From Polynucleobacter sp. MWH-UH19D (GTDB lineage: Bacteria; Pseudomonadota; Gammaproteobacteria; Burkholderiales; Burkholderiaceae), in the NCBI RefSeq assembly GCF_040409795.1, contig NZ_CP099571.1, positions 620,001 to 684,000 of the forward strand: 64,000 nt of DNA, in the 5' to 3' direction. This document shows positions 15,695 to 45,011 of this stretch, piece by piece (positions within the stretch are counted from its first letter, which is position 1; every line of letters starts with the position of its first letter). Under the pieces are notes generated by a model. It ran no database searches and was not told the origin of the DNA. It worked only from the letters and a program-made list of their open reading frames with translations. The position numbers were made by a program, and so were the translations under genes.

Positions 15695-15711
15695 TCGAAA
15701 AATAGTTAGAC

Positions 15712-16473: not shown

Positions 16474-16497
16474 TAACTAAAAGAAAAAAGAGAAAAC

Positions 16498-17286: not shown

Positions 17287-18008
17287 TGCTGCGCTTAATT
17301 AGAAACCATCGTCATTTGCTTGTGCTCAGTTTGAGTGCAATCGTACTTTTTGGTTGTGCAAGCGCTGATCGCCCTACCTTATTAACTACACCTGTTACTG
17401 CAAGACCTCGTCCTATCCAAGAGACTTCGGCCAATATGGGCAGCTTATATCCAGCTAACTCTGGTGGACCATATGTCAATGCTGTGAGTCACCGGCCCCT
17501 GTTTGAAGATCGCCGTGCGCGCAATGTTGGCGATACGCTTACCGTGCTTTTAAATGAAACCACTAGCGCTGCTAAAAATACTGGTATGTCAGCTGCACGA
17601 AAAGCCAATGCTGCATCTACATTCTCTAATCAATCCCCAACCTTTAACGGCGCCTACTTTAGCCTGGCCAATGCTGCCAATATTGTTGGAACAGGCGATA
17701 TTAAGAGTGAAGGTACGGGTGCTAGCGCAGCAAGCAATACTTTTGCAGGTACGATTACCGTGACAGTTGTTGAAGTTCTCTCCAATGGCAATTTAGTTGT
17801 TGCAGGAGAAAAGCAAGTTGCCGTTAGTAATGAAGAAGAAATTATTCGATTTGGCGGCGTTGTCAATCCGAATACCCTTGTATTTAACCAAGTTTCATCT
17901 CAGCAAGTAGCTGATGCACGTATTGAGTATCGCGGTAGAGGTGCAACAGATGATTCACAAGGCACGGGTTGGTTTACCAGGCTCATGTTAAAGCTGGCTC
18001 CTTTCTAA
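17286..18008 (+). CDS. flgH: Flagellar L-ring protein FlgH (lipoprotein)
   Basis: The product is 240 residues. The signal peptide ends in a lipobox, VLFGC, with the lipidated Cys near residue 20. The family segments LFEDRRARNVGDTLTVLL and GNLVVAGEKQVAVSNEEEIIRFGGVV are present. FlgH assembles the outer-membrane L ring around the distal rod. It directly follows flgG and precedes flgI. Confidence 0.96.
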   Translation: MLRLIRNHRHLLVLSLSAIVLFGCASADRPTLLTTPVTARPRPIQETSANMGSLYPANSGGPYVNAVSHRPLFEDRRARNVGDTLTVLLNETTSAAKNTGMSAARKANAASTFSNQSPTFNGAYFSLANAANIVGTGDIKSEGTGASAASNTFAGTITVTVVEVLSNGNLVVAGEKQVAVSNEEEIIRFGGVVNPNTLVFNQVSSQQVADARIEYRGRGATDDSQGTGWFTRLMLKLAPF

Positions 18009-18012
18009 TTTC

Positions 18013-19140
18013 ATGATGAAGCCATTTGCCTCTTCGCTCAAAAAAGGCTTGCTATCACTAGTAAGTCTTGCGGTCCTTTCAAGCAATTGTTTTGCAGATC
18101 GCATTAAGGATTTTGCAGATATTGCCGGTCAGCGCTCAAACCAATTGGTTGGCTATGGCTTGGTAGTCGGTTTGGATGGAACCGGTGACCAAACAACCCA
18201 AACCCCATTTACATTGCAAAGCGTATTGCAGATGATTGGTGTTCTGGGGGTTACTATTCCACAGGGCGGTGGCCAAACTCAGTTGCGTAATACCGCGGCG
18301 GTAATGGTTACAGCTGAATTTCCAGCATTAGCGCGCCCAGGTCAGCAAATTGACATCACTGTATCTTCTTTGGGTAATGCCACCAGCTTGAAAGGTGGAA
18401 CATTGGTCATGACCCCTTTAAAGGCAGCTGATGGCCAAGTATACGCTCAGGGTCAAGGAAATATTGTAATCGGTGGATCAAGGGCTGCAACAGGTGGCGC
18501 TGCCACATCGGTGAATCATCTTAATGCCGGGCGAATTCCTTCAGGCGGTTTGATTGAAAAAGCAGTCCCATCACTACTGGCGGATGAGTTTATACAGCTT
18601 GACTTGCATAGAGCAGATTTTTCCTTAATGCAAAGGACGGCAGAAACAATCGGCAAGCGTTTTGGATTGGGAACTGCGTTGCCGGTTGATGCTAGAACTC
18701 TAAATGTACGCGTGCCAGTTGAGCCACTAAGACGTACTGCATTTATGGCAGCTCTGCAAGACTTGGATGTGCCAATGGTAAGTGGTCCAGCTAGGGTGAT
18801 TTTGAACTCTAGAACAGGATCGGTGGTAATGAACCAAGCGGTCCAATTATCGCCATCAGCGGTAGCCCACGGAAACCTTACTGTAAAAGTTCAGCAAACC
18901 CCCACAACCAGTCAGCCACTTCCATTTAGTCGTGGACAAACTACTGTGACAACGCAAGATACCGCAACAATTAGTGATAGCGGCAAAGAAAATAGCTTGA
19001 TATCAGTACCCTCAGGCGCTTCATTGGACCAGGTGGTGAAGGCCTTAAATATGATGGGCGCCACGCCGCAAGACTTAATTTCAATTTTGCAATCATTAAA
19101 GTCTGCTGGCGCCCTTAGAGCAGAGTTAGAGGTTATCTAA
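18013..19140 (+). CDS. flgI: Flagellar P-ring protein FlgI
   Basis: The product is 375 residues with a signal peptide cleaved after NCFA. Mature conserved segments include RIKDFADIAGQRSNQLVGYG, LVVGLDGTGDQT and the C-terminal TPQDLISILQSLKSAGALRAELEVI. FlgI forms the peptidoglycan-level P ring. The ATG codons at 18013 and 18016 are adjacent, so the exact start may differ by one residue. Its TAA overlaps the flgJ ATG by one base. Confidence 0.96.
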   Translation: MMKPFASSLKKGLLSLVSLAVLSSNCFADRIKDFADIAGQRSNQLVGYGLVVGLDGTGDQTTQTPFTLQSVLQMIGVLGVTIPQGGGQTQLRNTAAVMVTAEFPALARPGQQIDITVSSLGNATSLKGGTLVMTPLKAADGQVYAQGQGNIVIGGSRAATGGAATSVNHLNAGRIPSGGLIEKAVPSLLADEFIQLDLHRADFSLMQRTAETIGKRFGLGTALPVDARTLNVRVPVEPLRRTAFMAALQDLDVPMVSGPARVILNSRTGSVVMNQAVQLSPSAVAHGNLTVKVQQTPTTSQPLPFSRGQTTVTTQDTATISDSGKENSLISVPSGASLDQVVKALNMMGATPQDLISILQSLKSAGALRAELEVI

Positions 19141-19583
19141 TGTCTGCAATTAATCCTATTTCCTCACCGGTGGATCAGAGTAGTTTGCGGCTTGTTACGT
19201 CCAATAAAATTGATTTGCCAACATCGAGCAATGAAGAGAAGCTAAAAAAAGCCGCCCAAGGTTTTGAGCGCACGCTAATTCGCCAAATGTTAAGCACAGT
19301 CCGAAGCACCAATTTGCGCGGAACTGATGAAGCGAGCAATACATCAAAGTCCTATTTAGAAATCATGGATGATCATGTGGCCGATATGCTTTCTAAGGGC
19401 AATGGTATTGGTTTTGCAAACAAGATGGCTGAGCAATTAATTCAACAAGCCAATGCAGGAAAACTAATCGGATCGCCAGAAATAGCCGTTAAACCTTTAA
19501 ATGCACCAAGAGAAGCTACGGTGTCCGCTGAAACTCTAAATGCCCTGAAAAGACCAGATGGTTTTATGGGTCCAGCGAAATAA
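19140..19583 (+). CDS. flgJ: FlgJ, rod-binding domain only
   Basis: The product is 147 residues and matches the N-terminal rod-cap domain of FlgJ (AAQGFERTLIRQMLSTVRS, then the GFANKMAEQLIQQ helix). E. coli and Salmonella FlgJ are about 313-316 residues, with a C-terminal glucosaminidase that opens the peptidoglycan for the rod. That domain is absent here, and the frame ends cleanly before flgK. A separate hydrolase elsewhere would be needed, as in other single-domain FlgJ bacteria. Confidence 0.92.
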   Translation: MSAINPISSPVDQSSLRLVTSNKIDLPTSSNEEKLKKAAQGFERTLIRQMLSTVRSTNLRGTDEASNTSKSYLEIMDDHVADMLSKGNGIGFANKMAEQLIQQANAGKLIGSPEIAVKPLNAPREATVSAETLNALKRPDGFMGPAK

Positions 19584-19595
19584 GTAAGGAAGCAA

Positions 19596-22052
19596 ATGGG
19601 TATCTATTCCATCACTGAATCGGCAATGGCTGGCTTGAATATTGCTCAAGCTGGGATTCTGACGACCTCGCAAAACGTAGCAGGCACTTCGGTTGAAGGA
19701 TATTCTCGTCGCAATGCAAATGCATTAATGGATGCGCTTGCACCAAATTCATTGATGTTAAATGGTTCTAGTTTTGCGGTAGAGGGATTTACACGTCAAT
19801 ACTCATCTTTAATTGGGTCTCAATTATTGAGTCAGCAGGCAAAGTCGAGTTACTCTGACACCTTGGTTCAGTACACTAATTCCGTTGATAGTTTGGTTGC
19901 TGATAAATCTGCCGGTTTAAATACGGCTATCAGTGATTTTTTTAATGCTATGGGTGCCTATGCAGCCGACCCAACCAATAAGGCTATGGCTGGTGCAATA
20001 ACTGGAGCAGCAAATGCGGTTGCTCAGCGCATGACTGGTATGAGTAATTTGGTGAGTCAAATAAAAAGCGATGCTCGAAGTGCGCTTGCAGATACTGTTG
20101 CTCAGGTGAATACGCTTTTGCCATCGTTGGCCAGTGTTAATCAAAAAATTGTAGAGGGAAACAATCCAGGCGTTAGCGCGCCTTCTGCGGATTTATTAGA
20201 TGAGCGAGATCGATTGCTGTCTCAACTTCAGCAATTAGTTGGCGGTCAAAGTCTGATTAACTCGGATGGAACTGCAACTCAATTGGTTGCTGGCATGCCT
20301 TTGGTTGAGCGAGCAGTTGCCAATAAGGTAACTGTCAATACTGATCAGCAGCATGTTGCCCTAACATTTAATTTACAAAATGGGCCAACTAAAGGTGTGC
20401 TGCAAACTGTACAGACTTTAGATGGTGGACAGGCGGGTGCCTTGCTGGAGCTTGCTAATAATTTTGTGCCATCTGTCCAAAAGCGTTTAGATACCATTGC
20501 AATGGGTTTAGTTAAAGTTGCCAACAGCGCCGCCCAAAGTGGGTCTGGAATTGCAACTAATTTGGCAATCTTTGGGTTTAAAGTTTCTGATAAAACATAT
20601 TCCAGTCTTGCTACTAACGACCTTACGGGGCAGTTGCCAACAATCAGTAATGAAAATGATTTGCTTGACTTGTATAGCAGTCTTGGCAATGCGATTGCCT
20701 CAGATAGTGGGGTTAAAGTAGCAAATAGTATTGGAACCTACACCAAAGTTAGTTCGCTTACTGCTTCAACAACAACACTGGCTGGCGACTACACTTTAAC
20801 CAAAGTTGGAACAGATCAGTTGCAATTGTCGGATGCTTTTGGAAAGTCGCAAATTGTTTCACTAATTAACAGCGTATCTGGGGGCTTGCAGACTGTAGAC
20901 TTTAATCAGATGGGCATTACGATGCAATTGGCTAATATTAGCCCATCACTCAGTGCCATCAGTACTGCAAGTGTGATTAAAAATAATGCCACCTTGCCTA
21001 TTGGTGGCCCTGCAACACAAACGATCACTGAAGTGGTGGTGCAAAATAATGTTCAGCCCGGGGAACTTAACTTCACTAGTGTAGGCGATAAGCTAACCCT
21101 GACAGCTGCTAACGGCGGAAGTCAAACGATTACGGTTCAACCGGGCGCTGCTGCTGGGCAGGTTTTTAACTTTGACCAAATTGGCGTTTCATTTAAGGTT
21201 ACAGATACTGGTAATCCTGTAAAAACTGCAAGTGACATTGCAAGTTACTTTAGCAACATTCGAGTTTCTACTGGCGACATCAAATCCGGAACAACGTTAC
21301 CAAGCCCAGGTCCAACGCAGACCATATCGAATGTGTCGGTTTTGGGGGGTGTAAAAGCAGGGGATTACACCTTTACTGTTAATGGGGCAGATTTAACTTT
21401 GACTGGAAACGGAAAGGCGCAAACTCTTACTGTGGGCGCTGGATTGGCGGCAGGTCAAACACTGAACTTTAATCAACTGGGCATTTCTTTTGTTGTATCC
21501 GATACAAGTGCTCCGCTTGCAGTTCAAACCGCAGCAACCATTGCTGGTTATTTTACGAATAAAAAGATACAAGTATCCGCAGGAATCACTTTAGATAGCG
21601 CTCAAGATACAAAAGAAAGCATCGCTACAGCACTGAATGGGCAAAAAATTCGAGTCAGCGGGATTTCAAATCCGCTGGTGAACTATGGCCTAAATGCGTC
21701 AAACTTTATCTCATTGGCGCCTAGCAATTTTGCAAGTTACTTTAATGGCAATACCCCGCTGATTAGTTCTGATAAAGCAAACGCAACCCAACAGATGGGT
21801 TCGATATTTGGTACTTCTGTTTCAAATCTCGTAAATGAGGTTGGAGTGCGAGTTGCCACATGGAAAAATAATCAAAAAGCAGATTCTGTCGTGCTTTCAA
21901 ATTTGAAAGCGCAGCGGGATTCAGTATCTGGCGTAAATTTAGACGAAGAGGCTGCTAATCTTTTAAAGTATCAGCAGTTGTATACAGCCTCAACAAAAGT
22001 CCTGCAAGCAGGCAATCAAATGTTCAACACCCTTTTATCAATCATGAACTAA
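19596..22052 (+). CDS. flgK: Hook-associated protein 1 FlgK, enlarged by internal repeats
   Basis: The product is 818 residues against 547 in E. coli. The N-terminal AMAGLNIAQAGILTTSQNVAGTSVEGYSRR and the C-terminal VSGVNLDEEAANLLKYQQLYTASTKVLQ are canonical. Residues about 381-669 hold three repeats with a period of about 100 residues, each with a GDYTxTxxG/LTLT strand pair, an AAGQxxNFxQxGIxFxV element and a SDIASYF-like helix. FlgK joins hook to filament. The repeats should form an extra surface domain, paralleling the enlargement of FlgE. Confidence 0.95.
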   Translation: MGIYSITESAMAGLNIAQAGILTTSQNVAGTSVEGYSRRNANALMDALAPNSLMLNGSSFAVEGFTRQYSSLIGSQLLSQQAKSSYSDTLVQYTNSVDSLVADKSAGLNTAISDFFNAMGAYAADPTNKAMAGAITGAANAVAQRMTGMSNLVSQIKSDARSALADTVAQVNTLLPSLASVNQKIVEGNNPGVSAPSADLLDERDRLLSQLQQLVGGQSLINSDGTATQLVAGMPLVERAVANKVTVNTDQQHVALTFNLQNGPTKGVLQTVQTLDGGQAGALLELANNFVPSVQKRLDTIAMGLVKVANSAAQSGSGIATNLAIFGFKVSDKTYSSLATNDLTGQLPTISNENDLLDLYSSLGNAIASDSGVKVANSIGTYTKVSSLTASTTTLAGDYTLTKVGTDQLQLSDAFGKSQIVSLINSVSGGLQTVDFNQMGITMQLANISPSLSAISTASVIKNNATLPIGGPATQTITEVVVQNNVQPGELNFTSVGDKLTLTAANGGSQTITVQPGAAAGQVFNFDQIGVSFKVTDTGNPVKTASDIASYFSNIRVSTGDIKSGTTLPSPGPTQTISNVSVLGGVKAGDYTFTVNGADLTLTGNGKAQTLTVGAGLAAGQTLNFNQLGISFVVSDTSAPLAVQTAATIAGYFTNKKIQVSAGITLDSAQDTKESIATALNGQKIRVSGISNPLVNYGLNASNFISLAPSNFASYFNGNTPLISSDKANATQQMGSIFGTSVSNLVNEVGVRVATWKNNQKADSVVLSNLKAQRDSVSGVNLDEEAANLLKYQQLYTASTKVLQAGNQMFNTLLSIMN
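20740..21610 (+). repeat. Protein-level repeats inside flgK
   Basis: Units 2 and 3 start at residues 474 and 574, exactly 100 residues apart, with the same TQTI opening; a more diverged first unit begins near residue 381. The strongest shared element is GxAAGQxxNFxQxGIxFxVxDT. Confidence 0.8.
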
Positions 22053-22059
22053 GGAGTAA

Positions 22060-22935
22060 ATGATGACTGTACGATTTAGTTCAAATCAAGTGGTTGATGC
22101 AGGTGTTCAGGGTATGGACAATGCTTTGGCAGATGCAATGTCATGGAATCAAAAGGTTACTTCAGGCAAGCAATATAGCAAGGCCTCGGATAATGCTTAT
22201 GCGGTCTCCAGGGGGGTGCGCTTAGATTTTGATATTTCTCGCCTAGATATGTTTAAGGCCAATCAAAATTTTGTTACCAGCAGTCATGCCAATGCCCAAA
22301 CCCAAATGGATAGCATGATTAATGAAATGAATAGCTTAAAACAGCTATTTGTGCAGTCCCAAAGTGGTGCGTTAAATAAGTCCAATTTTGCCGCCCTAAA
22401 GGTTCAGGCTGAGCAGATTCGCGATACGATCAAAAGCCAAATGACCGCCAGGGATGCCACTGGAAACCCCATTTTTAATAATGATGCAGAAATAAATAAA
22501 GTTCAAATTGAGCCCAATGTCATGGTGGAGTCTGGGGTAAGTTTTCAAAAAGCCTTTGGTTCAGATGGTAACTTGACTTATCCGGAAAGCTCCTCTTTGT
22601 ACAAAAATATCAATAATTTTGTGACCTATTTGGGTGAAATGGCTTCCGGAACAATGCCAACTAAGGCGGCCACAGTCGTTTCTGACGGCCTAAATGCCTC
22701 TTTTGACCAGTTAACCATGGCCGAACAGCGCAGTGGTGGGGTTTCATCCCAGGTCGATAACGCCAGAAACGCCATGACCGCCTTTGGCACCCAAATGGCT
22801 GCTTCACAGTCCGCCCTTTTGGATACCGACATGGCGGCAGCCACAGCGTCTTATACTAGAGCTCAGACCTTACTTAATGCAGCCCAGGCAATGTTTGCTA
22901 GACTGCAGCAAAGTAACTTATTTTCAAAACTATAA
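22060..22935 (+). CDS. flgL: Hook-associated protein 3 FlgL
   Basis: The product is 291 residues. The flagellin-like N-terminus contains MDNALADAMSWNQKVTSGKQYSKASDNAY, and the C-terminus LLDTDMAAATASYTRAQTLLNAAQAMFARLQQ matches the flagellin/FlgL D0 helix. FlgL caps the FlgK junction. It follows flgK by seven bases with AAGGAGTAAATG as ribosome site. FlgL rather than flagellin is chosen from position and from the lack of a flagellin central domain. Confidence 0.94.
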   Translation: MMTVRFSSNQVVDAGVQGMDNALADAMSWNQKVTSGKQYSKASDNAYAVSRGVRLDFDISRLDMFKANQNFVTSSHANAQTQMDSMINEMNSLKQLFVQSQSGALNKSNFAALKVQAEQIRDTIKSQMTARDATGNPIFNNDAEINKVQIEPNVMVESGVSFQKAFGSDGNLTYPESSSLYKNINNFVTYLGEMASGTMPTKAATVVSDGLNASFDQLTMAEQRSGGVSSQVDNARNAMTAFGTQMAASQSALLDTDMAAATASYTRAQTLLNAAQAMFARLQQSNLFSKL

Positions 22936-22954
22936 AAACTGAGTTGATCGAAGT

Positions 22955-23815
22955 ATGAATATTCCTTTAGGGTGGATTATTGCGCTTGCTTGTGCCCTGG
23001 GAGGCTATGCCTTGCACGGCGGCCATATCATGGTTTTATGGCAGCCAACTGAGGTTCTAACCATTGTGGGTGCCGCAGTTGGAACAATGATTGCTTCAAA
23101 CAGCATGATTAACCTAAAGAAGACGCTCTCTGCTTTGGGTGGTGCATTTAAATCAAAAAGCAATATCAAGCAGATGCACTTGGATTTGCTCTGTTTGATG
23201 TTCGAGATTTTGCAAAAGATTAAGCGTGATGGCTTGATGTCCTTAGAAGGTGACATAGAGGAACCAGAGGCCAGCCCTCTGTTTGAAAAATATCCCCTGA
23301 TCATGAAAGACCACCACTTGGTCGATTTCATTACCGATTACCTGCGCATGATGTTAGGCGGCTCCTTGGATGTGATTCAGATTGAGAGCTTGATGGAACA
23401 AGAATTAGACGTGCACCATCAAGAAACTCATATTCCAGTGGCGTCAGTTACGAACGTCGGTGATGGTTTGCCGGCTTTCGGTATTGTGGCGGCGGTTATG
23501 GGTGTGGTTCACACCATGGGATCTATTGGTTTGCCACCGGCTGAATTGGGTAAGTTAATTGGTGCAGCGCTCGTGGGTACCTTCTTGGGTATTTTGCTCG
23601 CTTATGCGATTGTTTCTCCAGTGGCGAAAGTATTGGAGCAAAACGCAGAAGCCGATAGCCGTGCATATATGGCGGTTAAAGCGATTTTGATCGCAAGCTT
23701 GAACAATTTCCCTCCTGCAGCAGCAGTTGAGTTTGGTCGCAAAGTGCTCTTTAGCTATCAACGTCCAACATTTGCTGAGCTTGATGAGGGTACCAAAGCC
23801 GTTAAAGGGAAATAA
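22955..23815 (+). CDS. motA: Flagellar motor stator protein MotA
   Basis: The product is 286 residues with four membrane helices. GLPAFGIVAAVMGVVHTMGSIG and LGKLIGAALVGTFLGILLAYAIVSPVA form the conserved pore-lining region, and the cytoplasmic loop holds charged residues that contact FliG. MotA and MotB form the ion-driven stator. It lies 19 bases after flgL and five before motB, so the stator genes appear to belong to the flg operon rather than to a separate class. Confidence 0.97.
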   Translation: MNIPLGWIIALACALGGYALHGGHIMVLWQPTEVLTIVGAAVGTMIASNSMINLKKTLSALGGAFKSKSNIKQMHLDLLCLMFEILQKIKRDGLMSLEGDIEEPEASPLFEKYPLIMKDHHLVDFITDYLRMMLGGSLDVIQIESLMEQELDVHHQETHIPVASVTNVGDGLPAFGIVAAVMGVVHTMGSIGLPPAELGKLIGAALVGTFLGILLAYAIVSPVAKVLEQNAEADSRAYMAVKAILIASLNNFPPAAAVEFGRKVLFSYQRPTFAELDEGTKAVKGK

Positions 23816-23820
23816 GCAGT

Positions 23821-24855
23821 ATGGCTAAGAACGACGCGCCCATTATTGTCATTAAGCGCGTTAAGAAGGGCGGTCATGGACATCACGGTGGCGCCTGGAA
23901 AATCGCTTACGCTGACTTCGTAACGGCGATGATGGCCTTCTTCCTGTTGATGTGGGTTCTTGGATCTACAACCGCAGGTGACTTGGCTGGTATTTCTGCT
24001 TACTTTCAGAACCCATTACGTGTCTCCTTGTCTGGTGGACAGGGTTCTGGCGATGCCACCCGCATCATCAGGGGTGGTGGCGACAACATTACTAAAACCG
24101 TTGGTGAAGAATCCCGCGCTGATGCCGATACTGAACAGCGCCGTATCAGTGATTCATCGGTAACCGATGTTGAGAACGCTCGTAAAGATAAAACCAAGAA
24201 CGAACAAGTCAAAGAAGATATTCAGAAAAAGATTGAGGCTGATGCTGAGCTAAAAAATGCTAAGGGCCAAGTCTTCATGGATATTAATAGCGAAGGCTTG
24301 CGCATTCAGGTTGTGGATGAAAAAGGTAAACCGCTCTTTAGTAGCGGCGGTACTGTTCCGAGTGTTTCAGCGCGCAGACTATTACGCATTATCGGCAAAT
24401 CGATTCAGATGGCCCCGGGCCCTGTCCGAATTGAGGGGCACTCTGATGGCGCCAAGTTTGGCAATGGCGAGACTGGTTATACCAACTGGGAGCTTTCTAC
24501 AGATCGTGCCAACGTAGCGCGTCGTGAGTTGATCGCGGGCGGTCTTGATCCTGCTTTAATTGTTCAAGTTATTGGCTTTGCTAATACCGTTCCACTTAAT
24601 CCTGAGGATTTGAATGACCCCTTGAATCGTCGTATCTCAATAACTTTGCTCAATAAGAAGCCTAAGCAAGAAGAGAAAAAATCGGTTGTTCGTCCAGTTG
24701 AAAAAGTGCCTGAAACGATTGAAAAAGGCGCTCAGGAAATACCGCCGAACTTGCGTGCACCGGCTCAGTTCCTGTCAAAAGACAATGCACCTAAAGCGCC
24801 AGTAATGGAGATTCCTTCGAAGTTAAGCCCGCCTGCGGATAAGCCTGCGAGGTAA
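23821..24855 (+). CDS. motB: Flagellar motor stator protein MotB
   Basis: The product is 344 residues. The single membrane helix WKIAYADFVTAMMAFFLLMW carries the ion-binding aspartate at D32, and the sequence around it resembles proton-type MotB. The C-terminal OmpA-like domain (RIEGHSDG, NWELSTDRANVARR, PLNPEDLNDPLNRRISITLL) anchors the stator to peptidoglycan. The last 60 residues are Pro/Lys/Glu-rich and likely disordered. Confidence 0.97.
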   Translation: MAKNDAPIIVIKRVKKGGHGHHGGAWKIAYADFVTAMMAFFLLMWVLGSTTAGDLAGISAYFQNPLRVSLSGGQGSGDATRIIRGGGDNITKTVGEESRADADTEQRRISDSSVTDVENARKDKTKNEQVKEDIQKKIEADAELKNAKGQVFMDINSEGLRIQVVDEKGKPLFSSGGTVPSVSARRLLRIIGKSIQMAPGPVRIEGHSDGAKFGNGETGYTNWELSTDRANVARRELIAGGLDPALIVQVIGFANTVPLNPEDLNDPLNRRISITLLNKKPKQEEKKSVVRPVEKVPETIEKGAQEIPPNLRAPAQFLSKDNAPKAPVMEIPSKLSPPADKPAR

Positions 24856-24859
24856 AGCC

Positions 24860-25663
24860 TTGTCCACAATCTCCAGGTTTGGCTTATTTCTGATAATCGC
24901 TTTAATTTGCAAGACGAGCTTTGCAAGTGACGCTCACTCGCCAGCAGAAGCGCCCCATGGAGAAACCTCTAAAGCCAGCTCATCCAATAACGGCGAGCCA
25001 TTCGTAGGCCCTTCATCTGAAGCAAAAAAACTCTACAAGCGCTATAAAAAAGCGACTGATAAAGCCATCATGGCAATTGCTTGTGTTCGTAGTCCTAAGT
25101 GCGTTGAGCCAGAGGATGAGGTTTTGCGCTACAGCAAGGAAGCCTTGCGAATCTTACAAAAGCTTGATGAGTTATCCGCCGAAGGAGATATTCAGGCAAA
25201 TTACTATCGCGGCTTAATCGCTTATGAGCGCGGTATTTATTATGATTCTCAAGCTGAGATCATTACGCACCCTGATTTTATTTTGACAGCCACAGTGTAT
25301 CGTCGCTATGCCAAGCAGCAGTTTTTGCTAGCCGAGAAATATTTGGCAGTACCTGCTAAAGAAAAGAACCCCTTTGCCTGCCAGTACATGGGCAATATTT
25401 ATAGCTCAGATATTCTAGGGCCACCACGCAAAGATAAGGCAACCAATTACTATTACACTGCTGCAATTGAGTTTATTAATCAAGGCAATAAGATTGAGGG
25501 CGCTAAGATGTATAACGCCATGAAAGAGAATGCCAATCCAGCGGATTCTCGTATTGTTCAGGTTTATGCAAAACTGCATAATGAGGAACCGATTGCCTCT
25601 TGGAGAAAATTGCCTAGTGATCTAGTACAAAAGCCTGCAAGTAAAAAAACACAACAGCATTAA
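24860..25663 (+). CDS. Exported TPR-like protein of unknown function
   Basis: This 267-residue product starts at TTG, supported by GAGG six bases upstream. A signal peptide covers about residues 1-22 (ending SFA). The mature part is helical, with tyrosine-rich repeats (QANYYRGLIAYERGIYY, ACQYMGNIY, NYYYTAAIEF) that resemble degenerate TPR/Sel1 motifs. It begins four bases after motB, so it is co-transcribed with the stator genes. A periplasmic scaffold role near the motor is inference. Confidence 0.75.
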   Translation: MSTISRFGLFLIIALICKTSFASDAHSPAEAPHGETSKASSSNNGEPFVGPSSEAKKLYKRYKKATDKAIMAIACVRSPKCVEPEDEVLRYSKEALRILQKLDELSAEGDIQANYYRGLIAYERGIYYDSQAEIITHPDFILTATVYRRYAKQQFLLAEKYLAVPAKEKNPFACQYMGNIYSSDILGPPRKDKATNYYYTAAIEFINQGNKIEGAKMYNAMKENANPADSRIVQVYAKLHNEEPIASWRKLPSDLVQKPASKKTQQH

Positions 25664-25690
25664 TACTGAATACTTTGGAGATTGCATAGC

Positions 25691-26092
25691 ATGAATGAAA
25701 AACTAGAACGTATTGTTGGCCTTCTTAAAAAACTCCTGCTATGGTTCATTTTGCCTTTAGTGCTACTCATTTTTTGCTTTATCTTGGGCGAGCAATTTGA
25801 GGTAGGTAGACTTTCTGCAATCGCTAGTTGCGAAGGTGCGATGAATAACGCTGCATGTATTCGCAGTAAAGGTTATTTGGCAACTGCACCTTACTATCCT
25901 GATCTCAGTCGTCGTTATTTTGGTGCCTATGCCAGAATGATTGGCGGTGATCTTGGGGCGAGCTATCGTGTTGAGCCACCAGCACCCGCTCTGAATTTGA
26001 AGGCTGCTGATGCACCTGCAGAGGATGAGGAAGATTTGGAAGATACCAAGCCTGCTGCAGCTAAAGACAAGCAGGCTCCTGCTAAAAAATAA
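25691..26092 (+). CDS. Small single-helix membrane protein of unknown function
   Basis: The ATG at 25691 is preferred over the in-frame TTG at 25682, because GGAG at 25677 is correctly spaced only for the ATG. The 133-residue product has a basic N-terminus, one strong membrane helix (about residues 15-36), then a domain with two close cysteines (IASCEGAMNNAACIRSKGY) and an acidic/Ala/Lys-rich tail. It lies between two TPR-type envelope genes downstream of motAB. No family was recognised. Confidence 0.7.
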   Translation: MNEKLERIVGLLKKLLLWFILPLVLLIFCFILGEQFEVGRLSAIASCEGAMNNAACIRSKGYLATAPYYPDLSRRYFGAYARMIGGDLGASYRVEPPAPALNLKAADAPAEDEEDLEDTKPAAAKDKQAPAKK

Positions 26093-26103
26093 TTTCGGGT
26101 TTT

Positions 26104-26697
26104 ATGAGATTGGTAAATTGGCACTCCGTGATACGAGTGCCGTTTGTTTTCTTGCTGGCGACTTTATTGATTGCCTGCTCGGATTATCGTAAAGCTAGAT
26201 CAGCTTACGAGGCTGGTGAATACACAAAAGCCTTACATATCTTTGAGCAGCTATCTAATGCCGGCGATAGTCAAGCGCAATACGACTTGTCGCAAATGTA
26301 TCTGCAAGGTATAGGTACAAGCAAAAATCTAGAAAAAGGGTGGATCTGGATGAATCGAGCTGCTAATGGCGGCAATGTTCAGGCTATGCTGGAGTTGGCA
26401 GTTCGCTATCAAAAAAGCCCCTCCTTAGAAAATTCTGAGCAGATGGCATTTATGTGGTTTCAGAAGGCGGCAATGGCCGGCAGTGCGGCTGGTCAATACA
26501 ACTTGGCGCATCTGTATGAAGATGGTAATCAGACCCCAGTCGATTTAACGCAGGCTTATGTTTGGATGGTGCTATCTCACAATTCTGGCAATCCAATGGC
26601 CGCTTCAGAGGCCAAGCAATTAAAGATGAAATTAAGCCCGGCAGAGCTGGATAAAGCCGACGCAATGATTTCTAAGCTCAAGAAGGCTTTACCTTAG
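26104..26697 (+). CDS. Sel1-repeat lipoprotein
   Basis: The 197-residue product has a lipoprotein signal ending LLIACS (Cys near residue 25). The mature part has Sel1-like repeats: AYEAGEYTKALHIFEQLSNAG, AQYDLSQMYLQGIGTSKNLEKGWIW and GQYNLAHLYEDGNQTPVDL. Sel1 proteins are helical adaptors. It closes the small-gene string between motB and flhB, suggesting a role at the envelope near the motor; this is inferred from context. Confidence 0.8.
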   Translation: MRLVNWHSVIRVPFVFLLATLLIACSDYRKARSAYEAGEYTKALHIFEQLSNAGDSQAQYDLSQMYLQGIGTSKNLEKGWIWMNRAANGGNVQAMLELAVRYQKSPSLENSEQMAFMWFQKAAMAGSAAGQYNLAHLYEDGNQTPVDLTQAYVWMVLSHNSGNPMAASEAKQLKMKLSPAELDKADAMISKLKKALP

Positions 26698-26755
26698 GTC
26701 TTTAGTTTCAAATCGTTTATCCTCTACTGGAAACGTATTCTTGAAGAGGTAAGAA

Positions 26756-27889
26756 TTGGCTGAAGGCGGAGATAACGCTCAAGAACGGGAACTAGAGCCG
26801 AGTGAACGGCGAATACTACGTGCCCGTGAACAAGGCCAGCTTCCACAGTCCAGAGATATAGCCACCTTTGCGCTATTGACAGTTTTCATTATCTTTTTAA
26901 TTGCTGCTGGCCCATTGCTCTTACAGCAGTTGGTTTTGATGACTAAGTCTAGTTTTGTTTTTTCTAAGCCAGTAGAGCTTTTGGATCATATTCGTGAGTG
27001 GTTGGGTGGCTCATTCCTGGTGGTCTTACTGTTACTGAGTTTGATTTTCTTGCCGATTTGGCTGGTAGCTGTGTTTGCGCCCTTATCTTTAGTCAATTTT
27101 CGCGCTTACTTTGCGCCCAAATTTGATATGAGTCGATTGGATTTTATTTCTGGGCTGGGCAGGATGGTTTCCTTAAATGCTTTAACCGAGCTCATTAAAA
27201 ATATCCTAAAAACGACCCTAGTTCTGGGAATAGGAATGGCCTATTTATCTGGGTTGTTTGTTTATATTAGATCTATTGTTAGCCAAGATTTTGATGCTGC
27301 GCTTTTACATACCTCTTATTTCATATTAAATGGCTTCTTGCTATTGATGGTGCCCTTGCTATTGATTGCTGTTGGTGATGGTTGGTTGCAATGGTTTAAC
27401 TTTCGCAAGCAAATTCGGATGAGTCCAGAAGAGATGAAGCAAGAGATGAAGGAGTCAGAGGGCTCGCCTGAGATTAAGCAGCGACTGCGTCAACGACAAC
27501 GTCAAATTGCTTCGTCACGCATGATGGCTGCTATTGAACGTGCTGATGTGGTTCTAGCCAACCCAGACCACTACTCCGTTGCATTGCGTTATGACATGGA
27601 GAAAATGTCAGCACCAATTGTGGTGGCTAAAGGTATGGACTTGGTTGCGCTACGTATTCAGGAAGTGGCTAGAGAGCATGATGTACCCGTCGCGCAAATA
27701 CCGCCATTGGCTCGTTACCTATACAGTCAGTTGGAGATCGGTGAGGCTATTCCAATGTCACTCTTTGAAGCCGTTGCAAGGATCCTTGCGTGGGCCTATG
27801 AAGTAAAAGAGTCGGGCGGAGTTCAGGGCGAAATACCCGAAGTCAGCTTTATTCCAGAACAACTCAGGCCAAACAGGCCACTACTTTAA
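26756..27889 (+). CDS. flhB: Flagellar export switch protein FlhB
   Basis: The 377-residue product starts at TTG, supported by AAGAGG six bases upstream. It opens with ERELEPSERRILRAREQGQLPQSRDI, has four membrane helices, and then the cytoplasmic autocleavage domain. The cleavage site reads N269-P270-D271-H272 instead of the usual NPTH; N269/P270 are numbered as in Salmonella. FlhB changes export specificity from hook to filament proteins with FliK. Here flhB stands without flhA, which must lie outside the window. Its stop overlaps the convergent gene's stop by four bases. Confidence 0.95.
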   Translation: MAEGGDNAQERELEPSERRILRAREQGQLPQSRDIATFALLTVFIIFLIAAGPLLLQQLVLMTKSSFVFSKPVELLDHIREWLGGSFLVVLLLLSLIFLPIWLVAVFAPLSLVNFRAYFAPKFDMSRLDFISGLGRMVSLNALTELIKNILKTTLVLGIGMAYLSGLFVYIRSIVSQDFDAALLHTSYFILNGFLLLMVPLLLIAVGDGWLQWFNFRKQIRMSPEEMKQEMKESEGSPEIKQRLRQRQRQIASSRMMAAIERADVVLANPDHYSVALRYDMEKMSAPIVVAKGMDLVALRIQEVAREHDVPVAQIPPLARYLYSQLEIGEAIPMSLFEAVARILAWAYEVKESGGVQGEIPEVSFIPEQLRPNRPLL

Positions 27890-29763: not shown

Positions 29764-30324
29764 TTGAGTAAAAAAAGCTATGGAATATTTCGGGGAATGC
29801 GATATTCCGATTTTTTATTCCTATGGGTGTTGTTCGCAAATTTACTCTTGGTTGCATACCTTGGGGTTGGTGACCATCAAAAAGCACTCAAGATTGCTTA
29901 TACCCAAACTAGTGGAGAGCAAATCATTGCTTGGTTTGAGGGGTTTAATCAAAAACTTCAAGAGAAAGAGTCGGTAGCAGAACAAGCCTGCGTTCCCTTT
30001 CAAGAGGGTGCGGCAAGCCCCGAAGGTTCTCAGGTAAACACCTGGAAAGACTGTATTGGTACTCTATTTGCAACTAGCGGCCCCTTTCACGAGTACACCA
30101 ATTTGCTGATGCCCGAAGATCCTCCTTATGCAAATAAATGTGACAAGCATGAGCTTGGCACGAGTGGCGCCTTCATTTTTGAAAAAATGACAATGAATCC
30201 AGCCGGACCTCCATCAGTGAGTCCAATAGAGCCAGGCGAAAAGTTGGTTAGCGGTATGAATATTCGCTTGAGCGTTTGTGACACAGGCTACTACCTAGTC
30301 AAAATCGGGGAGTTCAAATTATGA
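29764..30324 (+). CDS. One-helix envelope protein coupled to the double-sensor channel
   Basis: The 186-residue product starts at TTG, with GGGAG six bases upstream. It has one membrane helix near residues 16-34 (DFLFLWVLFANLLLVAYLGV) and an outside domain with four cysteines (in EQACVP, WKDCIG, ANKCDK, LSVCDT), enough for two disulfides. Its TGA lies inside the ATGA that starts the channel gene, so the two proteins should be made together. That layout suggests an auxiliary subunit of the channel. No known family was recognised. Confidence 0.7.
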   Translation: MSKKSYGIFRGMRYSDFLFLWVLFANLLLVAYLGVGDHQKALKIAYTQTSGEQIIAWFEGFNQKLQEKESVAEQACVPFQEGAASPEGSQVNTWKDCIGTLFATSGPFHEYTNLLMPEDPPYANKCDKHELGTSGAFIFEKMTMNPAGPPSVSPIEPGEKLVSGMNIRLSVCDTGYYLVKIGEFKL

Positions 30325-31952
30325 GCATCAAGATCCCCTTGTTTTCCAGTTTGAATTTGCGTTTGCGCAAGAAGGTATATGACTTACTCTTTAACGCCCA
30401 TTTAAAAAATAATTATCACCATCAGTTTGAGCATTTCATTACTTACATGATTGTGCTCAATATGGCAGGTCTGGTGCTTGAGCATATTCCAGTCATTTAC
30501 GAATCTCGCCAACACCTTTTTCACCTTTTTGATGTCTTTTCTCTAGGTGTCTTCACGGTAGAGTATGCATTGCGTCTATATGTTGCCCCTGAGGATCCTG
30601 CTTTTAAATCGGCAAAAGTTCCGCGCTTTGCATTCTTTAAAAGCCCGTTTGCTTTAATCGACTTGATCTCGATACTGCCGTTTTACCTTGGCGCATTCTT
30701 TGAGGCTGACCTGCGCGTTCTACGGGCATTACGACTTCTTCGTTTATTCAAGTTATTCAGAGCGGTTGCGCCAGCGGTGAGGGATTTTCTGGAACAGAAC
30801 AAAGACAAATCATTTCGCTACAAAATTTACGCCTTAGTAAACGAAACCCCAACAAGCGGTGAGCTCCATCACGTATTTGATCTCACGATTGTGATTTGGG
30901 TGATCATTTCTGTGTTGTGCGTGATTTTGGAATCAGTGCATAGCGTTAACTACTATTTGCATTCTGAGTTTGTGATTCTAGACATCATGGCTGTCGCAGT
31001 ATTTTCAACCGAATACTTGATGCGACTATATAGTTGTCCTGAAGATCCGCGATATAAAGCTTGGTTTACGGGGCGCCTTAAAAATGCGACCAGCCCAACA
31101 AGCATTATTGATTTGTTAGCGATCTTGCCCTTTTATTTAGAGAGCCTACTGCACCACTTATTTGATTTGCGATTCTTGCGAGTCTTTAGATTGATGCGAT
31201 TACTCAAGCTTGCCCGCTACTCAGGGGCTACGCAATCCCTCTTTGTGGTGATCAAGCGCGAGTGGCCAGTGATGAAGGCTTCAGCATTCATCATGATTTT
31301 GTTAGTGATGCTAGCGGCATGTTTGGGTTATTTGTTTGAACACGAAGCGCAGCCTGATAAGTTTGAGAACATTCCGCAATCTATTTACTGGGCAGTTGTA
31401 ACGCTAGCCAGTGTTGGCTATGGAGATATCTCGCCAGTAACGCCTGCGGGTCGTGCGATGACTATCGTACTCGCTCTCTTGGGTATTGGTATCTTTGCAA
31501 TTCCTGCGGCGATTCTGTCATCTGCGTTGAGTGATCAGTTGCGTATTGAGCGCGAAAAGATGATGAACGAGCTCTATCACATGCTAGAAGATGGTGTGAT
31601 TTCTGCAGAAGAGCAAGAGCTGATTGAGGCTGAAGCGAAGCGATTGCATCTATCCAAAAGCGAGTTAGATCGCTTGCTTGAAAAAGCGAGGGTGCAAATG
31701 GGTGTGGAGCATGCGAGTAATAATGGCGCTCATGGAAAATTTCATGAAATTAACCTCAGCTTTTTATCGAAGCATCCAACGGTGGCTGCTGAAGAACTCA
31801 AGATTGCCATCTCTAAGTTGCAGCAAATAATGAGTGTAAGTAATGCTGATGAATTGGTGAAATACTTCTCTGATCCAAATAATGCAACGCCATTACAAGC
31901 TGAGTTGATCAATCTCTTATTAGAAAACGCACACAAGCAAAAACTTAATTAG
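30321..31952 (+). CDS. Voltage-gated potassium-type channel with two voltage sensors and one pore
   Basis: The 543-residue product has two consecutive four-helix voltage-sensor domains. Sensor 1: S1 38-56, S2 66-87, S3 109-124, S4 131-149 with R132, R135, R138, R141, K144 and R147 at every third position. Sensor 2: S1 186-206, S2 217-237, S3 259-274, S4 282-300 with R284, R287, R290, R293 and K296. The pore follows: S5 318-339, selectivity filter TLASVGYGD at 361-369, S6 379-402. The cytoplasmic C-terminus is helical. Both sensors share EYxxRLYxxPEDP and IDLxxILPFYL, so one arose by duplication. Potassium selectivity is inferred from GYGD. Confidence 0.9.
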   Translation: MSIKIPLFSSLNLRLRKKVYDLLFNAHLKNNYHHQFEHFITYMIVLNMAGLVLEHIPVIYESRQHLFHLFDVFSLGVFTVEYALRLYVAPEDPAFKSAKVPRFAFFKSPFALIDLISILPFYLGAFFEADLRVLRALRLLRLFKLFRAVAPAVRDFLEQNKDKSFRYKIYALVNETPTSGELHHVFDLTIVIWVIISVLCVILESVHSVNYYLHSEFVILDIMAVAVFSTEYLMRLYSCPEDPRYKAWFTGRLKNATSPTSIIDLLAILPFYLESLLHHLFDLRFLRVFRLMRLLKLARYSGATQSLFVVIKREWPVMKASAFIMILLVMLAACLGYLFEHEAQPDKFENIPQSIYWAVVTLASVGYGDISPVTPAGRAMTIVLALLGIGIFAIPAAILSSALSDQLRIEREKMMNELYHMLEDGVISAEEQELIEAEAKRLHLSKSELDRLLEKARVQMGVEHASNNGAHGKFHEINLSFLSKHPTVAAEELKIAISKLQQIMSVSNADELVKYFSDPNNATPLQAELINLLLENAHKQKLN

Positions 31953-33870: not shown

Positions 33871-33985
33871 AACGAATACAGGGTTTTATTGGTAATTTGT
33901 GCATTTTAAAGCCCAAAAACGAAGATCAACTGATAGAATTGCCTAAATCTTTATTAATGACATTGCGCGCTAAGGAGTGCTAAGT

Positions 33986-34324
33986 ATGGCTGAAGTAAAT
34001 CAACAAGGTTGCCTATTTGTAGGTGAGGGCGTAGTTCTCAAGGGTAACTTTGAGGTACCTGATATCGCGTCAATTTCTGGAACTGTTGAAGGTGAGCTCA
34101 CCGCTAAACAAGTTTTAATTGAAGCCACTGGTACTGTGCGCGGCAAACTCACTGGTGAGTCAATCGATATTCGTGGCGAAGTGAACGAGTATGTTTCCTC
34201 ATCACGTAGCTTAATCATTCGATCTACAGGCAAAGTGACTGGTTCTATTAATTACTCTGAAATTGAAATTGAGAAGGGCGGTCACCTGCATGGTGATTTG
34301 CATAACCTCAATCCGCATTCTTAA
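33986..34324 (+). CDS. Bactofilin (first of three)
   Basis: The ATG at 33986 is chosen over GTG at 33977 because AAGGAG at 33972-33977 fits it. The 112-residue product is a bare bactofilin core: glycine-spaced beta-helix rungs such as DIASISGTVEGELTAKQVLIEATGTVRGKL and INYSEIEIEKGGHLHGDL. Bactofilins polymerise without nucleotide into cytoskeletal filaments at the inner membrane. It heads a string bactofilin-bactofilin-bactofilin-ParA. Confidence 0.9.
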   Translation: MAEVNQQGCLFVGEGVVLKGNFEVPDIASISGTVEGELTAKQVLIEATGTVRGKLTGESIDIRGEVNEYVSSSRSLIIRSTGKVTGSINYSEIEIEKGGHLHGDLHNLNPHS

Positions 34325-34373
34325 TATTTTTCATTCATTTCAACCTATTAATTTCATTACCTAATACATCACG

Positions 34374-34838
34374 ATGTCTATCTTTTCAAAAAATACTCCT
34401 GCTACAGAAAACGAGTCAACCAGCAATCAAGAAGCTGCTGAAGAGCATATTGCATCTGAAGAGCTTGCATCCAGCGCAAGCGTTTCTGAGCAAGTAACAA
34501 GACTCGACTCGTCAGCTCGATCAAGCGTATTGACTAAGCCATCCATCATTAGTGAAGGCTTTACATTTGAAGGCACAATTACTTCAGATGGTGTTCTTAA
34601 TATCGCCGGTACGGTGCGCGGCAAAATTACTGCTAAGTCTGTATTGATTGATTCCAGTGGTCAGGTTGATGGTGAGCTTAATTCAGAGCAGTTGGTAATT
34701 AAAGGTCAGCTCAAGGGTGACGTCAATTGCGATGACCTCAATGTTGGGCCACTGGCTCACGTAGATGGCAACATTAGTTATAAATACATTCATATTCAGC
34801 GCGGTGGTAGAGTGGCTGGAAAATTTATTAAAAACTAA
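34374..34838 (+). CDS. Bactofilin (second of three)
   Basis: The 154-residue product has a Ser/Glu-rich N-terminal tail of about 60 residues and then a core that starts GFTFEGTITSDGVLNIAGTVRGKITAKSV and ends HVDGNISYKYIHIQRGGRVAGK. The long tail distinguishes it from its neighbours and may bind membrane or partner proteins. It lies 49 bases after the first bactofilin gene. Confidence 0.9.
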   Translation: MSIFSKNTPATENESTSNQEAAEEHIASEELASSASVSEQVTRLDSSARSSVLTKPSIISEGFTFEGTITSDGVLNIAGTVRGKITAKSVLIDSSGQVDGELNSEQLVIKGQLKGDVNCDDLNVGPLAHVDGNISYKYIHIQRGGRVAGKFIKN

Positions 34839-34850
34839 CATCCAAATCTC

Positions 34851-35264
34851 ATGGCCATCAGACAAAGTCATGCGATTCGAGTATTAGATCCCTCAAGGGA
34901 AACATTTGGTTCAATCATTGGATCAGATTTAGAGATTTCTGGCCGCATTGTTGCAACTAAGAGTCTGCGTATTGATGGCACCATTATTGGCGATGTTGTA
35001 ACCAAGCAAGGCGCAGATGTGTGTGTGGCGCTTGGTAAGACCGGCCTAGTTCAAGGCAATATATCTGCAGGGCGAGTATTGGTGGCGGGGCGCGTTGAAG
35101 GTAATGTTCGCGCCACCGAAAGAGTGGAATTGCATAGTGGCGCTGACGTGCATGGCGACATTATTTATGCCCAAATCGGCATTGAGCAAGGCGCTCGTTT
35201 AAGTGGGCTGTTATCAAAGATTACCGAGCAGGATATTTTGCTCGATGATCATTCAGATCGTTAA
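34851..35264 (+). CDS. Bactofilin (third of three)
   Basis: The 137-residue product contains FGSIIGSDLEISGRIVATKSLRIDGTIIGDV and a beta-helix core ending QIGIEQGARLSGLL. It begins 12 bases after the second bactofilin. Three different bactofilins in a row suggest mixed or layered filaments, as described for BacNOP of Myxococcus xanthus. Confidence 0.88.
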   Translation: MAIRQSHAIRVLDPSRETFGSIIGSDLEISGRIVATKSLRIDGTIIGDVVTKQGADVCVALGKTGLVQGNISAGRVLVAGRVEGNVRATERVELHSGADVHGDIIYAQIGIEQGARLSGLLSKITEQDILLDDHSDR

Positions 35265-43832: not shown

Positions 43833-45011
43833 ATGATAAAAAAAAGCGTATTCAAAAAATTGAATTTTCCAGCATATGTATTTCACGCTGTTCATACTTT
43901 CGTTGTCAAAAATAAAGGCAGAACCTTTCGTCAGAAGGTTTACTCGCTTTTAAATCCAACCCCAACATCTGGAGAGCTGCATCACATCATTGACCATGTG
44001 ATTGTAATTTCAGTATTACTGTCAGTTGTCTCAATCATTTTGGAGACAGTTCCATGGATTCATGGACCTTTTCAAAAAGAGTTTTATGCCATCGAGTTGT
44101 TCACTGTAGCCGTATTCTCGGTGGAATATATTGGGCGCGTGTATTCTTGCTGTGAAGAACCTAAGTACCAAGAGCCTATCTTGGGAAGACTTAAATATAT
44201 GTTTACGATTGGCGCCTTGATTGATTTGGTAGCAGTGGCGCCATTCTTTGTGGGCCTGATATTCCACGAAACCTTCGACCTGCGCTTCTTGCGAGTCTTT
44301 AGGCTGTCACGATTACTTAAGTTGACGCGCTATACCGGTACGCTCAATACTATGTACAAGGCTATCTATCGTGAGCGCCGTGTTTTATTTGCGGCAGCAT
44401 TTATGATGGTCTTGTTAGTGATTCTGACGGCAAGCCTTGGTTTTGAATTCGAGCATGCCGCGCAGCCCGATAAATTTGACACCATTCCTGATGCAATGTA
44501 CTGGGCTGTAATTACTCTAGCAAGTGTGGGGTATGGTGACTTAACGCCAATCACCCCAATGGGTAAAGCAATGACTGTGGTAATCAGTCTGATTGGAATT
44601 GGTATTTTTGCAATCCCAGCGGGTTTAATGGCATCGGCTTTTACCGATCAGTTACGCATCGATCGCGAAGCATTTGAGAATGAATTCAGAGATGCGATTG
44701 CTAAGGGAAGGCTCTCTCCTAGTGATCGACTTGCTTTAGAGGCTGAGGCAGAGCGCTTGCACTTATCGATGGAAGATGTGGATCGCATTACCGATAAGGT
44801 TAAGAGTGAGATCATGAGTAATACGGGTGCCTTGCCAGAAGGTATTGCTCCAGAAATCGTATTTGAAAAATATCGCCAGCAAATTAGCCACCTCAAAGTA
44901 TTCTCTCTGAGTAAGCAATCTGAGCATGTCGAGTTGATGCTCCAAGAAAGCGGCAATGCAACGGAGTTAGAGCGCCAAATTTGGCTCTTAATCAAACAAA
45001 AATCTAATTAG
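43833..45011 (+). CDS. Voltage-gated potassium-type channel, single sensor
   Basis: The 392-residue product has one voltage sensor (S1 52-72, S2 85-105, S3 126-143, S4 149-167 with R151, R154, R157, R160, K163, R166), S5 186-205, filter TLASVGYGD at 228-236, and S6. The C-terminus has a helical domain (GRLSPSDRLALEAEAERLHLSMEDVDRI) also found in the double-sensor protein at 30321. The junction KVYSLLNPTPTSGELHH matches residues 168-184 of that protein, showing that the two are paralogues. Its end overlaps the convergent neighbour by eight bases. Confidence 0.93.
   Translation: MIKKSVFKKLNFPAYVFHAVHTFVVKNKGRTFRQKVYSLLNPTPTSGELHHIIDHVIVISVLLSVVSIILETVPWIHGPFQKEFYAIELFTVAVFSVEYIGRVYSCCEEPKYQEPILGRLKYMFTIGALIDLVAVAPFFVGLIFHETFDLRFLRVFRLSRLLKLTRYTGTLNTMYKAIYRERRVLFAAAFMMVLLVILTASLGFEFEHAAQPDKFDTIPDAMYWAVITLASVGYGDLTPITPMGKAMTVVISLIGIGIFAIPAGLMASAFTDQLRIDREAFENEFRDAIAKGRLSPSDRLALEAEAERLHLSMEDVDRITDKVKSEIMSNTGALPEGIAPEIVFEKYRQQISHLKVFSLSKQSEHVELMLQESGNATELERQIWLLIKQKSN

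Follow-up and report, generated by a model that had tools for sequence, protein, structure and literature searches.

A predicted potassium channel of Polynucleobacter with two voltage-sensor domains before a single pore

Voltage-gated channels are taught as having one sensor per pore unit. According to the parts of the cited articles available to us, two-pore channels and tandem channels resembling voltage-gated potassium (Kv) channels repeat sensor and pore together, fungal TOK channels combine six transmembrane helices (6TM) with two more (2TM) (both PMC7576140), and Hv1 proton channels and voltage-sensing phosphatases (VSPs) possess a sensor that lacks its own pore (PMC12332018). Here, we analysed a stretch of 64,000 nucleotides from Polynucleobacter sp. 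MWH-UH19D (contig NZ_CP099571.1, positions 620,001 to 684,000; hereafter the window, in whose own numbering all positions are given), in which a gene at 30321–31952 on the forward strand encodes a predicted potassium channel with two full voltage-sensor domains (VSD1 and VSD2) before a single pore. With moderate confidence, we read it as a channel with two sensors in series in each subunit, of which VSD1 would act on VSD2 and VSD2 would gate the pore.

The gene starts with ATG and encodes 543 amino acids (aa). Pfam places Ion_trans, the family of the voltage-gated ion channel superfamily, on two stretches of the protein (162.4 bits in all, above the curated cut-off of 25) and Ion_trans_2 on one (residues 325–403), in line with the two complete S1–S4 sensors and one pore described in the first-pass annotation of this DNA. 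In the profile comparison proposed there, made for the first half, VSD1 alone (residues 1–164) matches Ion_trans over residues 35–149 and profile positions 3–112 of 241 (66.1 bits, cut-off 25, E = 3.5e-18), and among sequences of the PDB it matches the sensors of three channels with solved structures, namely 4bgn from a voltage-gated sodium channel (E = 9.4e-9), the NaChBac chimera 6vxo and Kv4.2 (7e7z, E = 1.3e-6). VSD1, delimited by Pfam, model helices and conservation, comprises residues 34–148 (30420–30764; S1–S4 with F78, E81, R85 and D114) and is joined by a linker of residues 149–183 (30765–30869), seen in the structural model and resembled by a stretch in the single-sensor channels L002, L042 and L112, to VSD2 at residues 184–300 (30870–31220; F228, E231, R235 and D264), which is supported by PDB matches and an Ion_trans match over 183–406. 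S4–S5 linker and pore (S5, filter and S6) follow at residues 301–405 (31221–31535), and a C-terminal region of residues 406–543 (31536–31949) is helical in the model and gave no family above cut-off in the family scan. All these features lie on the forward strand.

As in Kv channels, the S4 of both sensors carries a basic residue at every third position, six each: R132, R135, R138, R141, K144 and R147 in VSD1 (residues 130–147, 30708–30761; DLRVLRALRLLRLFKLFR) and R284, R287, R290, R293, K296 and R299 in VSD2 (residues 282–299, 31164–31217; DLRFLRVFRLMRLLKLAR). The earlier count of six and five charges is hence to be corrected. The filter TLASVGYGD (residues 361–369, 31401–31427) shows the potassium signature of Kv channels (T/S-V-G-Y-G-D), and the number of sensors departs from their one per pore subunit, as two sensors stand before one pore. 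With its single Ion_trans_2 stretch, the protein lacks the two pore domains per chain of two-pore and tandem 2×6TM channels, and as no second pore follows S6 it does not have the TOK layout of a 6TM unit and a 2TM pore unit either. The NCBIfam family K_channel_Meth (hyperpolarization-activated potassium channel) was reached with 58.9 bits, below its curated 300 bits. The two sensors align with 36% identity over 134 aa (E = 2e-25) and share, as had been noticed before, the motifs EYxxRLYxxPEDP and IDLxxILPFYL. When every stop-to-stop open frame of at least 60 aa in the window was scanned (35,209 residues), just three runs of six basic residues in register were found, namely the two S4s of this channel and the S4 of a second channel at 43833–45011.

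The layout is not confined to this gene. Three protein searches, from each of which the best 120 rows were taken, gave 254 proteins including the queries, and profiles built here recognise VSD1, VSD2 and pore in 253 of them; the remaining one (P0242, 323 aa) has one sensor in its available piece. Adding 43 open reading frames (ORFs) from the loci resulted in 296 double-sensor reading frames, 274 of them distinct. Among the 402 proteins and ORFs with channel domains, these 296 combine two sensors with a single pore, 105 combine one sensor with one pore, and one, cut by the end of its locus, has two sensors without a pore; two pores were found in none of the 402. In five long open frames (L061, L071, L075, L139 and L140), our profiles find just one sensor each. 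The double-sensor proteins form a long clade, mostly of 540–555 aa and 65–97% identical to the query among the matches listed, with Polynucleobacter as host where one is named plus one metagenome-assembled genome (MAG) labelled Rhodoferax, and a clade that we call the 507-aa type, mostly of 505–520 aa and 39–44% identical to the query, from MAGs labelled Gammaproteobacteria, Steroidobacteraceae and once Actinobacteria. Where their sources label these relatives, they are given as ‘ion transporter’, ‘voltage-gated potassium channel’ or hypothetical protein.

The first-pass annotation had suggested a search for the architecture across Burkholderiales, and it does occur elsewhere in the genus, while more distant genomes add few cases. 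Within Polynucleobacter, 29 of 186 genomes carry the channel at 31 places, counted from rows that span both sensors, one of the places being partial. In overlapping samples of wider taxa, with scoring limited to the top three or four candidates of each genome, the layout was found in 11 of 398 family genomes (all Polynucleobacter), 3 of 399 order genomes, one of 369 class genomes (the source genome itself) and 2 of 398 phylum genomes; the class, order and phylum scans were run at E 1e-30, at which divergent cases could be missed. Such a divergent case is the RefSeq protein WP_159082572.1, which has the same layout and is encoded on a plasmid of Gemmobacter aquarius (Alphaproteobacteria; L144, 2743–4218). 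No phage or plasmid record gave a match covering over 80% of the query, and among the phage and plasmid matches listed the Gemmobacter gene is the one that reaches into VSD1. Viral contigs yielded one relative, a double-sensor channel truncated where its IMG/VR contig ends (L143, 1–1434). The other genes on that contig look phage-like by eye (lysozyme-like and spanin-like); it perhaps represents a prophage edge. At locus L038 (G177), an in-frame stop lies near the start of the double-sensor match and marks either a decaying gene or an assembly error.

Both sensors are strongly conserved, as counted over the 274 distinct proteins. The S4 of VSD1 keeps six basic residues in 267 of them and five in the other seven (owing to a gap in the alignment in six cases and to a serine in one); for VSD2 the figures are 270 with six and four with five. 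F78, E81 and R85 in S2, D114 in S3 and E54 in S1 of VSD1 are never substituted where aligned, and the same holds for F228, E231, R235 and D264 of VSD2, where E204 is once replaced by Q. According to the available part of PMC7059764, an aromatic residue and counter-charges characterise known sensors; we suggest, as a correspondence of our own, that the residues just named in both sensors represent them. Each filter residue is identical in at least 271 of the proteins. Over 3000 random pairs, mean identity is highest in the pore (0.71), with 0.61 in the core of VSD1 and 0.57 in that of VSD2. The ratio of nonsynonymous to synonymous substitutions (dN/dS; Nei-Gojobori, 25 genes) has medians of 0.052 for VSD1, 0.099 for VSD2, 0.036 for the pore, 0.079 for the linker and 0.081 for the C-terminal region, based on the 96, 112, 157, 129 and 58 of 300 pairs, respectively, that were left after dropping those that were saturated or had dS outside 0.05–2. 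VSD1 is hence under purifying selection and held at least as tightly as VSD2. The earlier suggestion that the intact S4 segments mark both sensors as functional gains weight from this conservation, which argues that VSD1 is functional.

Could the doubling nevertheless have arisen in the assembly or annotation? We found nothing in favour of this and regard its probability as negligible: the double-sensor reading frames lie on many contigs, one-contig genomes among them, purifying selection extends over both halves, and the Gemmobacter protein with the same layout is annotated in RefSeq. The alignment of VSD1 with VSD2, the distinct relatives, the selection and the scan for basic runs together rule out an artefact or a chance origin. 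A more serious alternative, though one we consider unlikely, is that VSD1 is a structural or assembly domain, folded like a sensor but immobile upon voltage changes, whose charges would serve folding and contacts in the tetramer or with a partner protein, and that VSD2 alone would gate. Maturation of Shaker requires pairs of counter-charge and S4 residues (available part of PMC7059764), and VSD1 was apparently lost in the lines of the single-sensor channels L002 and L094 while the channel persisted. But for a purely structural domain the loss of some charges would be expected, whereas all six of VSD1, the outer ones included, are kept in nearly all of the proteins with a ladder like that of VSD2.

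Directly upstream of the channel gene lies a partner gene of 186 aa (29764–30324, forward strand, TTG start), recognised as an ORF with relatives directly upstream of other double-sensor channels. Its stop overlaps the channel start by the four bases ATGA (30321–30324). This gene, as well as the second channel in the window, had been missed in the first-pass annotation. The protein has a basic N-terminus, one N-terminal hydrophobic helix (judged by eye) and then a domain with four cysteines. Among 29 distinct proteins, including one truncated at a contig end, these cysteines are kept in 27, 29, 29 and 29, respectively. The overlap recurs in 27 of 29 distinct cases. Relatives of the partner, with identities down to 23%, stand directly upstream in every long-clade double-sensor locus for which upstream sequence is present, including L092, while genes further out vary; at L005 and L018 the partner gene is partial at a contig end. 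A partner profile built from 17 members found 29 places in 27 of the 186 genus genomes, each immediately preceding a double-sensor channel (from a by-eye comparison of coordinates), and the two double-sensor genomes without partner, G013 and G176, carry the 507-aa type. The partner protein of the window matched no Pfam or NCBIfam family, Pfam on the 17 members gave two chance-level hits only, and the best hit of the profile in the PDB had an E-value of 0.63. The partner is likely a dedicated accessory subunit of the double-sensor channel, and it would be oriented outward and contain disulfides.

The partner also bears on the idea that VSD1 is a sensor with an output of its own, be it to the partner, to the C-terminal region or an attached GGDEF domain, or through a proton passage of its own, rather than one acting on the potassium pore. 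We hold this to be improbable. Besides the existence of a dedicated partner gene, it could draw on two metagenome relatives, P0040 and P0044 (705 aa), in which a GGDEF domain with an intact RWGGDEF motif follows the C-terminal region (Pfam E = 3.1e-41 for P0040), and on isolated sensors working alone in Hv1 and VSP (available part of PMC12332018). The two fusions might connect membrane voltage with cyclic-di-GMP and keep a signalling role in view. However, the 507-aa-type loci seen keep VSD1 without a partner, and GGDEF fusions account for just 2 of 120 listed relatives.

The second channel, at 43833–45011 (forward strand, 392 aa), lies about 12 kb from the double-sensor gene and matches its residues 149–529 with 48% identity. 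It is of the VSD2-pore type with a remnant of the linker and without VSD1, as judged by trees and a comparison of N-termini. In the VSD2-pore tree, this channel and its relatives (L002, L042 and L112) as well as L094 branch among the double-sensor channels (98/91 and 97/90), the L002 group and L094 both nested within one clade (100/99). The N-termini of the L002 group retain the linker, as seen from NKGRTFRQKVYSLLNPTPTSG beside NKDKSFRYKIYALVNETPTSG, those of L094 less clearly, and the linker is not retained in the N-termini of the distant single-sensor channels shown. The second channel has the appearance of a relative in which VSD1 was lost and the linker helix retained. We read the VSD2-pore tree as one gain and two losses of VSD1; a single clade of all double-sensor channels was not rejected (p = 0.187). 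Two rows of this tree, L099 and L115, turned out to be the same gene, so that one gene of that tandem pair is missing from it.

In the tree of sensors, the VSD1s all come together in a single clade (100/99), and VSD2 is placed with single-sensor channels. The 507-aa type is set apart both in VSD1 (100/98) and in VSD2 (100/96), as expected if both sensors travel together. A joint clade of VSD1 and VSD2 was not rejected either (approximately unbiased test, p = 0.323), and a quicker tree placed VSD1 weakly nearer to five single-sensor rows than to VSD2. Of the earlier claim that one sensor is a duplicate, the likeness in identity and motifs thus stands, and duplication within the gene is one of two possibilities: VSD1 may derive from the VSD2 of the same gene or from a different sensor in the family. 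How a fusion could start is illustrated by L092 24–3057 (G1097), where a single-sensor channel, a partner gene and a double-sensor channel stand in a row, and by G1211 and G1155, each with two single-sensor genes in tandem.

The proximity of the two channel genes in the window, together with the match between them, might also indicate that the double-sensor protein forms no homotetramers but assembles together with the single-sensor channel encoded nearby, giving fewer than eight sensors per pore. This appears very improbable to us. An intact close single-sensor match occurs in just 7 of the 29 double-sensor genomes (in an eighth, G144, the match is a broken piece), and in G095 the single-sensor type occurs without a double-sensor channel, so that mixing cannot be general.

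We return to the reading in which VSD1 acts in series on VSD2. Structure prediction from the single sequence was uninformative (predicted local distance difference test, pLDDT, 41.8) and was replaced by an alignment-based AlphaFold2 model of the monomer (76-row alignment), with ten membrane helices predicted per subunit. The possibility named in the first-pass annotation, that residues 30–160 do not form a four-helix sensor, finds no support there: VSD1 is modelled as helices 33–54, 64–91, 109–124 and 131–159 (block pLDDT 76–90). Its S4 is predicted as one helix (131–159) that extends past the sensor and is followed by the pre-S1 helix of VSD2 (165–173). A fold search with the whole model matched the VSD2-pore part to known Kv channels; at least a fifth of its rows span residues 160–471 only, so the fold of VSD1 rests on model and sequence. 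Four subunits would likely assemble into one homotetrameric channel with eight sensors. Upon depolarisation, the S4 of VSD2 would move, pull the S4–S5 linker and gate the pore as in Kv channels, and the S4 of VSD1 would move too and shift or delay VSD2 via the continuous S4-linker helix. The four VSD1s would likely bias the four VSD2s, which would gate the pore. Membrane voltage would likely be read twice, and opening would then require two voltage steps, with a voltage dependence that is shifted, steeper or multi-step. The partner, as an accessory subunit with a one-helix anchor and a presumably disulfide-bearing outer domain, may bind to the periplasmic side of the sensors.

Several observations weigh against this reading. 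S4 charges and counter-charges also serve folding (available part of PMC7059764), so that conservation does not prove movement of VSD1. The nesting of the single-sensor L002 group and L094 among double-sensor channels indicates that VSD1 is dispensable. At L040 and L041, the two 507-aa-type loci seen, and in the Gemmobacter stretch read, the partner is missing, and it is thus not needed for the double-sensor layout as such. The S4s of the Gemmobacter protein are thinner, with basic residues at three of six positions in VSD1 and four of six in VSD2 (by eye). Finally, the fold matches have low whole-model template modelling scores (0.22–0.35 by query length) and root-mean-square deviations of at least 5 Å, and the domain packing of the model is therefore not trustworthy. 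A further step would be to see a separate class of voltage-gated potassium channel, with eight working sensors per pore, in which an outer sensor ring would gate an inner one and this in turn the pore; a dedicated single-helix partner from the same operon would tune the channel in one clade, and some relatives would be coupled to a diguanylate cyclase. We put this forward tentatively and consider it slightly on the doubtful side of an even balance.

In its surroundings, the pair of partner and channel gene lies shortly downstream of a run at 13229–27889 that we take to be flagellar genes (hook, rod, ring, MotA/MotB-like motor and FlhB-like). Three adjoining small genes, presumably bactofilin-like, and then a presumably ParA-like gene lie at 33977–35264. 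Promoters and terminators were no more frequent in the sequence than in shuffles.

No description of a channel with two sensors before one pore was found in full-text searches of one open-access library, as judged from listings with the opening of each abstract, in agreement with the first-pass annotation; this is a weak absence, as most subscription journals lie outside it. The available parts of PMC12652588, PMC10377628 and PMC13095418 contain no tandem sensors before one pore. A second conserved sensor in series would allow one to ask how sensors add up and whether one sensor can gate another, and it would offer a way to ask which share of a charge ladder serves sensing and which folding. 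Close relatives in which VSD1 was apparently lost, including the second channel of this genome, represent natural deletion controls, and the partner gene, given its linkage, may encode an accessory subunit dedicated to a bacterial Kv-type channel. Being small and bacterial, the proteins lend themselves to expression and cryo-electron microscopy.

KCNE-type accessory subunits have a single transmembrane helix and go with a channel. The partner is like them in its one membrane helix (by eye) and in being encoded alongside the channel, and differs from them by its larger domain, in which four cysteines are conserved; neither Pfam nor NCBIfam gave a match for it. The channel itself belongs to the Ion_trans superfamily and, as far as its sequence tells, would work in a Kv-like manner while breaking the rule of one sensor per pore. 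With homotetrameric Kv channels (Kv4.2, Kv1.3, Kv2.1, KCNQ and the bacterial and archaeal 6TM Kv channels), it shares VSD2, S4–S5 linker, filter and S6 by sequence and fold, but adds a full sensor before the usual six helices and thereby reaches ten predicted membrane helices. Two-pore and tandem Kv-like channels likewise have two sensors per chain, but in the order VSD-pore-VSD-pore, whereas here no pore follows the first sensor. TOK channels also combine unequal numbers of sensors and pores in one potassium channel chain, with one sensor and two pores instead of two sensors and one pore. VSD1 alone resembles the pore-less sensors of Hv1 and VSP, but is fused ahead of a complete Kv-type channel.
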